Shown in pieces: positions 25,838-43,298 of a stretch of DNA of 49,606 nt; positions within the stretch are counted from its first letter, which is position 1; every line of letters starts with the position of its first letter. Under the pieces are notes generated by a model. The model was given only the letters and a program-made list of their open reading frames with translations. It was not told where the DNA came from and did no database searches. The position numbers and the translations under genes were made by a program. Origin of the DNA: Methylotenera oryzisoli (GTDB lineage: Bacteria > Pseudomonadota > Gammaproteobacteria > Burkholderiales > Methylophilaceae); NCBI GenBank assembly GCA_945878695.1, contig CAMDXI010000008.1, positions 1 to 49,606 of the forward strand, written 5' to 3'.

Positions 25838-26665
25838 TTATCGGACATGAAGTTGCAAATCAGCAAACAATGGGAAGTATACATAAAACAAGGCCACTGG
25901 CAGGGTGGGCATCAATCCATCTATCCTATCCAGTACACCGCCGTGGCCAGGTAATAATTGGCTGCTGTCTTTAACATTAGCATGGCGTTTTAGTAAGGAT
26001 TCAAACAGATCCCCCATCACGCTTAATACCACCAAGAACCATAATGCGACGATCAGCCAACGACTAATGTGCCAATAATAACAAAGTGCCAAGCCATACA
26101 AGGTGACGGCCAACAGCGCGCCTGCAACGCCCTCCCATGTTTTACCTGGACTAATTTCTACCGCTAATTTATGCCGGCCAAATTGCTTACCAGAAAAATA
26201 GGCCGCGCTATCCGCAAGCCATACTGTGGCCATGACGGCCAATAGCAACCATGGACTGATTTTTTGCAAGCCAATTAAAGCCAGCCAAACGGATAAGAGT
26301 AAGCAAAAACCAAGTATGGCCAGCAGCAAGCGGTTATGAATCTCTTTCCTAGTTAACAGCCAAACGGGTGCAATAAACAACCAAAAAAACGTGGCCAAGC
26401 AAAGCGCTAAAACAGCCAAGACATCGATGTAATAGGCTGCCGGCAGCAGCGCCGAGAATAGTATCATGGCAGCCACGCTGGCAGTGCAGGCTAAATTTAG
26501 CCAGGTCTGCCGCTTGTTTAGCTGGATTAAATTGGACCACTCCCAAACTGCGATCAGAGTAGCCAATAGCGTAAGTAAAGCCCAGATTAAATCGGAAGCC
26601 TTAAACAAGGCGGTGGAAAAAAATAATCCGAGAACAAGAGCAGTAGTAATGCGGGTTTTAAGCAT
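25838..26665 (-). CDS. cdsA: Phosphatidate cytidylyltransferase
   Basis: A 275-residue integral membrane enzyme that makes CDP-diacylglycerol from phosphatidate and CTP. It has about seven to eight hydrophobic segments and, near the C-terminus, the family signature beginning [20 protein letters not shown] and ending GVLDRIDGL. It lies nine bases after uppS and before dxr. Confidence 0.96.
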
Positions 26666-34594: not shown

Positions 34595-34630
34595 CAATAA
34601 AAAAGCCTTGAAACATCAAGGCTTTTTTAT
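34595..34630. terminator. Bidirectional terminator between glnD and the cupin gene
   Basis: A perfect stem AAAAAAGCCTTG (34599-34610) with CAAGGCTTTTTT (34617-34628) has a six-base loop. The A-run and T-run make it work for both converging genes. Confidence 0.92.
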
Positions 34631-34643
34631 TTACTCAGTTTGA

Positions 34644-35609: not shown

Positions 35610-35676
35610 AAATTGAGCCTAGCGATTGGACCTGGATAATTGCATTGCAACTGTAGTCTAGAAAGGAATTAGCAGA

Positions 35677-35707
35677 ATAAAAAAGCCGCTTATTAGCGGC
35701 TTTTTTA
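35677..35707. terminator. Bidirectional terminator between lipoprotein gene and tRNA-Ser
   Basis: A perfect stem AAAAAAGCCGCT (35679-35690) with AGCGGCTTTTTT (35695-35706), four-base loop. It serves the lipoprotein gene and, on the minus strand, tRNA-Ser. Confidence 0.92.
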
Positions 35708-35716
35708 TTGTTCGGG

Positions 35717-36424: not shown

Positions 36425-37165
36425 TTAGGCCTGCTTAACCAATTGCACAATCAGATTGCGTACGCGCTGCATGGTCAGATTTAGATTATCCACCACTTCT
36501 TCGTATTGTATGCTGTGCAAGCTGCTACCTCGACCGGCAGCATGGTTAGCGATCGGGCATATCACGGCGTAGCTTATGCCCAACTCCCTAGCCAACGCGG
36601 CTTCTGGCATACCTGTCATGCCGACCATGGTCGCACCATCACGCTCCAAACGATCAATCTCAGCAGCCGTCTCCAATCGCGGCCCTTGTGTAGTGGCATA
36701 CACGCCATGATCAATTAAAGGCTCGCCAATTGCGATAGCGGCTTGCTGCCACTTTTTGCGTAATTTTGGGCAATACGGTTCGGTGAAGTCTATGTGTTTG
36801 ACCGGCAAATCCACGCCGTCAAAAAAGGTGGCATTTCTGCCGTGTGTGTAATCAATAATCTGGTGCGGCATGGCTATGCTGCCAGGCGTCAATTCCGCAT
36901 GGATGCCGCCGACAGTAGCGACTGCCGCTATTTCCGTGACGCCTTGCAGATGCAGGGCCGAGATATTCGCACGATAATTCACTTTATGCGGGGCAATGGT
37001 GTGCCCACTGCCATGTCGTGCCAAAAACACCACATCGCGTCCGGCAATCTTGCCAAATACCAATGGTTGCGACGGTTCGCCGTAGGGCGTGCGCACAATT
37101 AAACGCCTGGTGATTTCCAAGTTGTCCAGCTGGGTTAAGCCGGTTCCGCCGATGATAGCTAACAT
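36425..37165 (-). CDS. mtnP: S-methyl-5'-thioinosine phosphorylase (MTAP/PNP family)
   Basis: A 246-residue nucleoside phosphorylase of the MTAP/PNP fold. GGTGLTQLDNLE near the N-terminus, the phosphate-binding FLARHGSGHTIAPHKVNYRAN and GVYATTQGPRLETAAEI are clear. MTGMPEAALARELGI, close to the Pseudomonas enzyme that acts on 5'-methylthioinosine rather than methylthioadenosine, suggests the inosine form. The substrate is inferred from resemblance only; MTA phosphorylase is the alternative. A GGAAG lies before the ATG. It is divergent from hpnC and followed by def. Confidence 0.85.
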   Translation of the reverse strand: MLAIIGGTGLTQLDNLEITRRLIVRTPYGEPSQPLVFGKIAGRDVVFLARHGSGHTIAPHKVNYRANISALHLQGVTEIAAVATVGGIHAELTPGSIAMPHQIIDYTHGRNATFFDGVDLPVKHIDFTEPYCPKLRKKWQQAAIAIGEPLIDHGVYATTQGPRLETAAEIDRLERDGATMVGMTGMPEAALARELGISYAVICPIANHAAGRGSSLHSIQYEEVVDNLNLTMQRVRNLIVQLVKQA

Positions 37166-37252
37166 AAGGTTGCTTCCAGTATTAATGTAGACCCCGAATT
37201 AAACCAGGTTTTACACAGTGATGATGTATTGATTCTAACAAAGCTTAGGCCA

Positions 37253-37273
37253 TTTATTGCATAGTTTATTGCA
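37253..37273. repeat. Spaced direct repeat in the mtnP-hpnC gap
   Basis: TTTATTGCA occurs at 37253-37261 and again at 37265-37273, 12 bases apart. Close to one helical turn, so it might be a paired protein-binding site. Confidence 0.5.
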
Positions 37274-37293
37274 CGAAATGCCGGCTTTTTACT

Positions 37294-37323
37294 GCCTTCT
37301 TTGCTAAATTTAGCAAAGAAGGC
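37294..37323. promoter_or_regulatory. Perfect 30-bp palindrome upstream of hpnC
   Basis: Positions 37294-37308 (GCCTTCTTTGCTAAA) are the exact reverse complement of 37309-37323. No T-run follows on either strand, so it is not an ordinary terminator. The right arm contains AAGAAGG, nine bases before an in-frame TTG. It could be a DNA operator, or an RNA stem hiding the ribosome site. Confidence 0.8.
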
Positions 37324-37349
37324 TAGCCAAATTGTGGCATACTCACGCC

Positions 37350-38249
37350 ATGATGACGCCGCCACATACCCCTCTAGACGCTCATGCCATTGCGGCTGAT
37401 AGCCTACGTTTAGCCCAGCAGCATTACGAAAATTTTCCGGTTGCTTCCATAGTTCTCCCTGCCCGCTTGCGCGAACCGATCGCCTTAATCTACCGCTACG
37501 CCAGGCAAGCTGACGATTTCGCAGACGAAGGTGAGTTTAGTGTAAGCCAGCGCATCGCATTACTGGATGATTATCGGCATGAACTGGATTTGTTGGCGGC
37601 CTACATCAAGCCTAATAGCGATTTTTTTCTAAGCTTAGGCGCCATGATAAAAGCCCGCCATCTACCCTACCAACCGTTTTACGATTTACTCGATGCATTC
37701 AAGCAAGACGTGAGTAAAACCCGTTATGCTAATTACGCTGAAATTAGCCATTATTGTGAGCGTTCAGCTAATCCTATAGGCCGTTTGCTGCTATCGCTAT
37801 ACGGCGCAGCAAATCCGGAAAACAGCGCTTATGCCGACAAGATCTGCACGGCGCTGCAATTAATCAACTTTCTGCAAGACATAGCCATAGACCTGCAAAA
37901 AAATGCCGGTAAACAACGTATTTATTTATGCCAAGATGAAATGCTGGCCTATGGCATTAGCGAACAGACACTGCAGGAGTTTGCCTCTGGTGTAAAATCC
38001 ACCGACGCCAATTGGCAAGCTTTTATGCATTTCAATTTAAACCGAGTGGAGTGTTTGCTGGCCGCTGGCAAACCGCTGGGGCGAATCTTAAGTGGTCGCA
38101 TAGGCTTAGAAATGCGCATGATTATTGCCGGCGGAGAACGCATAGCGGCTAAGATTAGGCAGCATCAAGGCGATGTGTTTAATCATAGGCCTAGGCTGCA
38201 AGCTTTAGATTGGCTGCGCATCGTATTTGTCGCCCTGTTTAAGCAATAG
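37350..38249 (+). CDS. hpnC: Hydroxysqualene synthase HpnC
   Basis: An all-alpha trans-isoprenyl diphosphate synthase. In the HpnCDE route (established in hopanoid and squalene producers) HpnD couples two farnesyl diphosphates to presqualene diphosphate, HpnC makes hydroxysqualene, and HpnE reduces it. Here HYENFPVASIVLP, the first aspartate motif in YARQADDFADEGE and the second in INFLQDIAIDLQKN are clear. I use the ATG at 37350 (299 residues, MMTPPHTP). A TTG at 37332 is better placed relative to AAGAAGG and would add six residues. hpnD follows eight bases later. Confidence 0.92.
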   Translation: MMTPPHTPLDAHAIAADSLRLAQQHYENFPVASIVLPARLREPIALIYRYARQADDFADEGEFSVSQRIALLDDYRHELDLLAAYIKPNSDFFLSLGAMIKARHLPYQPFYDLLDAFKQDVSKTRYANYAEISHYCERSANPIGRLLLSLYGAANPENSAYADKICTALQLINFLQDIAIDLQKNAGKQRIYLCQDEMLAYGISEQTLQEFASGVKSTDANWQAFMHFNLNRVECLLAAGKPLGRILSGRIGLEMRMIIAGGERIAAKIRQHQGDVFNHRPRLQALDWLRIVFVALFKQ

Positions 38250-43267: not shown

Positions 43268-43298
43268 ACAAAAAAGGCTACCGAAGTAGCCTTTTTTG
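43268..43298 (-). terminator. Terminator after rplI with UUCG loop
   Basis: On the minus strand CAAAAAAGGCTAC-TTCG-GTAGCCTTTTTTG is a perfect stem closed by a C(UUCG)G tetraloop and followed by T6. It ends the rpsF-priB-rpsR-rplI message. Confidence 0.95.

Follow-up and report, generated by a model that had tools for sequence, protein, structure and literature searches.

A conserved extended -10-like motif and an adjoining palindrome upstream of hpnC in Methylotenera oryzisoli and its relatives

The motif TGGCATACT, kept almost unchanged before the squalene synthase gene hpnC in the relatives read, is more notable than the perfect 30-bp palindrome that adjoins it, and the parts of this arrangement are of known kinds. 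We assign a probability of about 0.6 to the reading that hpnC would be transcribed from TGGCATACT, acting as an extended -10 element, as a leaderless mRNA, and that the palindrome would be upstream promoter DNA with a history of template switching. From comparison of sequences we infer promoter function, start site, leaderless translation and the mutational route alike. Four features of the window (the whole 49.6-kb stretch of DNA that was analysed) define the locus:

36425..37165, minus strand: mtnP-type S-methyl-5'-thioinosine phosphorylase gene (NCBIfam NF006599), the divergent neighbour
37294..37323, no strand: perfect 30-bp palindrome at -56 to -27, with its centre at -41.5 (A of the hpnC ATG = +1)
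37335..37343, plus strand: TGGCATACT, 6 nt upstream of the hpnC ATG, an extended -10 sequence (TGn plus CATACT at 37338-37343) singled out by its conservation as the putative hpnC promoter
37350..38249, plus strand: hpnC, encoding squalene synthase HpnC (stop included), putatively leaderless and starting with the ATG at 37350

A motif kept before hpnC

HpnC scores above the NCBIfam TIGR03464 cut-off, with hpnD and then hpnE following downstream of hpnC, and the first-pass annotation had named the divergent mtnP/hpnC pair correctly, as judged by NCBIfam profiles. The comparison drew on a family set of 187 genomes, in 174 of which the hpnC of the window had a match, including 48 of the 52 genomes of the genus. 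All 48 were read, and 46 carry TGGCATACT in exact form upstream of hpnC, with an in-frame ATG standing exactly 6 nt past it in 45 of these 46 (8 nt in G175). Outside the genus, the motif was exact in 17 of 17 family genomes picked by genus before its spread was known, as well as in 25 of 28 genomes of an enlarged and partly biased set, 11 of which were picked after a pattern count and include five prior matches (G101, G119, G135, G072 and G062); the 28 were drawn from 126 non-genus family genomes with an hpnC match. Overall, 71 of the 76 family genomes whose upstream DNA was read (48 of the genus and the partly biased 28 others) have the exact motif, off-consensus bases included. None of 18 genomes of other families has it within 140 nt of the aligned hpnC start, even at up to one substitution; these represent 18 of the 19 such genomes with an hpnC match (G038, a weak match, was omitted), while five others had no match.

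Three of the five exceptions, G177 (TGTCATACT), G083 (TGTCATAAT) and G098 (TGCTATACT), still fit a relaxed pattern, TGnYATAMT, their changes being TGT, TATACT and CATAAT, respectively. The remaining two, G176 and G143, have neither the motif nor the relaxed pattern before hpnC in the stretch read, which counts against a conserved promoter, as does the position of the G098 box, 44 nt from the aligned hpnC start. G176 (L079), the sole genus genome lacking TGnYATAMT there, still keeps CACGCCATG at the start.

The distance to the start codon is also largely preserved. Among the 25 non-genus genomes with TGGCATACT, the first in-frame start is an ATG 6–11 nt past the motif in 23; in G109 a GTG 1 nt past it precedes a later ATG, and G101 has no in-frame ATG until 52 nt past it, a distance that counts against the promoter reading. 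Across the family, the stretch from box to ATG differs in length and composition (it is more uniform within the genus, where ACGCC is common), and this variability speaks against a hairpin or coding constraint. In the source assembly the pattern TGNYATAMTN6ATG occurs once, at hpnC. Somewhere in 99 of the 187 family genomes the strict pattern with 6 nt to an ATG can be found, hpnC not always being the place, and several of these matches fall outside hpnC.

TGG CATACT has the composition of an extended -10 element, that is, TGn followed by a hexamer whose second base is A and whose sixth is T. In the window CATACT begins 12 bp before the hpnC ATG, where a -10-like box of a leaderless gene would be placed. 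A hexamer ending 6–11 nt upstream of the ATG would place the first base of the RNA on the start codon or slightly ahead of it. None of the 71 starts preceded by TGGCATACT has a Shine-Dalgarno 4-mer, vs. 12 of 35 ATG open reading frames of the window (at least 200 codons, mechanically called starts). What counts against the promoter assignment is the hexamer itself, which matches TATAAT at 4 of 6 positions only and whose off-consensus bases show no drift. CATACT is similar to an RpoS -10 sequence. An RpoS promoter was considered and rejected, RpoS scoring above the TIGR02394 cut-off in 0 of 187 family genomes (and in 1 of 14 control genomes); with no family genome over this cut-off, the housekeeping sigma factor is the likely reader of TGGCATACT.

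In the arrangement proposed here, TGGCATACT would be the only strongly conserved part of the promoter and the RNA 5' end would coincide with the ATG or lie a few bases from it. The palindrome, directly upstream and covering the -35/UP region, would then be DNA of the promoter and not leader RNA, and its effect on expression, if any, would be exerted via contact of polymerase or a protein with this upstream DNA. Two further elements of the 184-bp gap between the divergent genes belong to this description:

37317..37320, plus strand: genus-wide A-rich element, at -18 to -15 from the T of TGGCATACT; here AGAA, inside the right arm of the palindrome
37232..37246, minus strand: AAGCTTTGTTAGAAT, likely -10 region of the mtnP-type gene, an invariant block in four close species with a putative promoter role

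The four columns of the A-rich element contain 93, 80, 87 and 76% A in 46 genus genomes. Two observations count against its importance: the window has a G at the second position, and the element is missing from the other 25 family genomes with TGGCATACT. On the mtnP side, AAGCTTTGTTAGAAT recurs at up to two changes in 30 of 48 genus genomes and in 0 of 28 other family genomes (190-nt stretch read). Between both promoters, at 37253-37273 of the window, there is also a direct repeat, two copies of TTTATTGCA 12 bp apart, which is less perfect in G006 and G002.

The palindrome, chance and RNA structure

The arms GCCTTCTTTGCTAAA and TTTAGCAAAGAAGGC at 37294-37323 form a perfect inverted repeat without spacer, confirming the description of two halves that are exact reverse complements. 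This is the longest perfect even palindrome of the window (the runner-up has 14 bp), with 4.7e-5 palindromes of 30 bp expected per window from the window base composition and 8.9e-5 from that of the gap, so that the earlier statement that it is far beyond chance stands under a composition model. Most of the analysis below concerns its inner part:

37300..37317, no strand: 18-bp core TTTGCTAAATTTAGCAAA, shared without change by G006 and G171 and at one mismatch by G002; none of the 42 other genus genomes compared has it here

The 30-bp palindrome occurs once in its own assembly (1.39 Mb, 86% complete), and with no further copy there a repeat family was rejected. An intrinsic terminator was rejected as well. 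As first described, the stem is without a T-run, which is missing on both strands; the terminator scan is silent at the palindrome, and the transcripts of the divergent genes do not meet there. Hairpins with A-run and T-run ends at 34596-34631, 35676-35709 and 43269-43298 are ordinary terminators by shape. A scan of genome contigs with a 19-mer of the core matched 8 records, two of which are CAJBBQ010000101.1 (uncultured proteobacterium) and CALQUO020000002.1 (Methylotenera oryzisoli); the six matches in unrelated taxa are ascribed to chance (we estimate about 2 for an even base composition and more for AT-rich DNA). Elsewhere in the window, at 26489-26502, a 14-bp palindrome, GGCTAAATTTAGCC, has the same GCTAAATTTAGC centre as the 30-bp palindrome, and a third copy of GCTAAATTTAGC lies at G000:C6:11289-11300 (G000 being the source genome).

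The alignment of the gap among close relatives, as the first-pass annotation had suggested, gave a divided answer: four close species have a near-palindrome there, and 42 other genus genomes have none with this centre. The core is exact in G000, G006 and G171 and has one change in G002, and of the 15 arm positions 15 pair in G000, 13 in G006, 10 in G171 and 13 in G002. At the palindrome centre the four species average 8.75 symmetric pairs out of 9 and the 42 others 2.64, the latter value being within the range of other centres, i.e., background. If the centre is shifted by 2 bp, G012 and G175 reach 7 of 9 pairs. A chance palindrome devoid of any particular history or role would fit its restriction at this place to four species and a conservation of the core that is not significant after permutation (see below), but the number expected per window and the recurrence of the same near-palindrome in four species make this very improbable.

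The first-pass annotation had proposed a translational switch on squalene synthesis, in which the palindrome is transcribed as a 15-bp stem hiding a ribosome site, AAGAAGG, before a TTG start of hpnC. Both sequence elements exist, the TTG at 37332 being in frame, but AAGAAGG is missing from the three nearest relatives (AAGTAGC in G006 and G002, AAAAGAG in G171) and it is the ATG at 37350 that is conserved as a start. The plus strand folds strongly (z -3.9, 0 of 200 shuffles as good), which is notable, as with any long perfect palindrome. One of the 15 arm pairs is altered on both sides between species (A-U to U-A), yet this covariation was matched by 455 of 500 shuffles, in an alignment of four sequences with little power. 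The true register pairs 86.7% of cells vs. 30–62% for slid registers, as expected when the structure comes from one aligned sequence. A single Rfam match (E 0.45, 18 bits vs. a gathering score of 62) was dismissed.

Promoter evidence also bears on this proposal. A scan for two-hexamer sigma-70 sites, a class that does not cover extended -10 sites, found none on either strand within 37000-37500 (0.6 expected), and the conserved promoter-like motif TGGCATACT is located downstream of the palindrome. With an hpnC RNA start at about 37350, the palindrome (-56 to -27) would be outside the hpnC mRNA. A transcript starting after 37323, which the first-pass annotation had itself named as evidence against its proposal, is thus what the conservation of the motif suggests. 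With its ribosome site unkept and its arms covarying no more than shuffles of the four sequences, we give the switch next to no credence, and the palindrome is most likely promoter DNA of a few close relatives, not an RNA switch.

A possible operator or trace of template switching

A possible, if unlikely, alternative is that the 18–20 bp core serves as an operator for a dimeric factor at -41.5, either a class II activator replacing the -35 hexamer or a repressor, maybe affecting the mtnP-type gene too. Given an RNA start at the ATG, its centre would be at exactly -41.5, a position that we take to suit a class II activator or a repressor, and to this extent the repressor operator of the first-pass annotation is plausible. 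To our knowledge, the palindrome matches no known activator consensus. Among the four species, columns vary at 1 of 18 core positions (only G002 departs, by one base) vs. 6 of 10 in the outer arms; however, with 36 of 137 background columns varying, palindrome included, a window as quiet as the core arose in 53% of permutations, and core conservation is therefore not used as proof of selection.

The search for similar palindromes, also proposed at the outset, gave no second place for the 20-bp core at up to three mismatches in the own 86%-complete assembly, and hence no sign of a multi-promoter regulon. There is likewise no regulator among the five named neighbouring genes, and of the 46 genus genomes with TGGCATACT, 42 lack the symmetry at this position, i.e., the candidate operator is limited to four close species. 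Matches to the 18-mer at up to two mismatches occur in 20 of 52 genus genomes vs. 16 of 52 for a reversed control pattern, and outside the four species no 18-mer match among the places listed is at hpnC.

Returning to the reading of the palindrome as promoter DNA shaped by template switching, the comparison is with the next relative, G027 (HpnC 77% identical). In an ungapped alignment the left arm keeps 6–7 of 15 bases and the right arm 10–13 of 15, while the flanks keep 13–17 of 25 and 8 of 11. The newer part thus seems to be the left arm, a near mirror copy of the right arm; a gain of the left arm is the parsimonious course, with G027 the sole usable outgroup and the direction of change not fixed by one outgroup. 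In G000, two right-arm bases are unlike both G006 and G002, and both restore pairs. When 6–12 changes were placed at random, both mismatches were repaired in 2–4 of 10,000 trials, a post hoc figure for two substitutions, whose direction rests on G006 and G002 only.

On this evidence, the right arm would hold the genus-wide A-rich upstream element, with a left arm that is its near mirror copy only in the four close species, and two adjacent right-arm changes would have perfected the repeat in G000, most simply via quasipalindrome template switching. The symmetry in the sister species could alternatively reflect selection on a binding site. A more far-reaching scenario, which we consider distinctly unlikely, would combine both: template switching may have built a symmetric protein-binding site from half of the A-rich -35/UP element, by which the hpnC promoter became regulated in a small-genome clade, the four relatives representing successive stages.

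Relation to known promoters and mutations

Overall, the comparison indicates an hpnC start other than the one buried in the proposed stem, and it illustrates that an RNA switch does not follow from a palindrome, however striking. In this methylotroph family, the near-invariant TGGCATACT upstream of hpnC provides a clean, testable case of a conserved leaderless promoter in hopanoid-precursor synthesis, and the palindrome provides a small natural series on the origin and perfecting of inverted repeats. Among the titles and abstract openings matched in an open-access library for hopanoid genes, Methylotenera and Methylophilaceae, no account of the hpnC promoter was found.

In extended -10 sigma-70 promoters, TGn abuts the -10 hexamer and the -35 hexamer is weak or absent. 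The TGn arrangement is common to these promoters and to hpnC, whereas the hexamer of the latter, CATACT, departs from the consensus but never varies among the exact matches. With class II activator sites at -41.5 the palindrome has position and dyad symmetry in common, differing in that it is a single candidate site with no regulator among the five named neighbouring genes.

Template switching at quasipalindromes is reported to cause mutations in E. coli (PMC7202029), and according to PMC8794818 it can both create stems and repair them. The palindrome would share with these mutations an imperfect repeat perfected by clustered changes in one arm; as compared with the described cases, the switch is here deduced from four species and one outgroup. 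Finally, TA-led leaderless genes are reported in PMC3160421, a table of which has leaderless genes in 9 of 71 beta-proteobacterial genomes. These genes and hpnC have in common a -10-like box some 12 bp upstream of the start codon and no Shine-Dalgarno sequence, while the box of hpnC differs in being an extended one, TGG-CATACT, nearly invariant across the sampled family and belonging to one gene.
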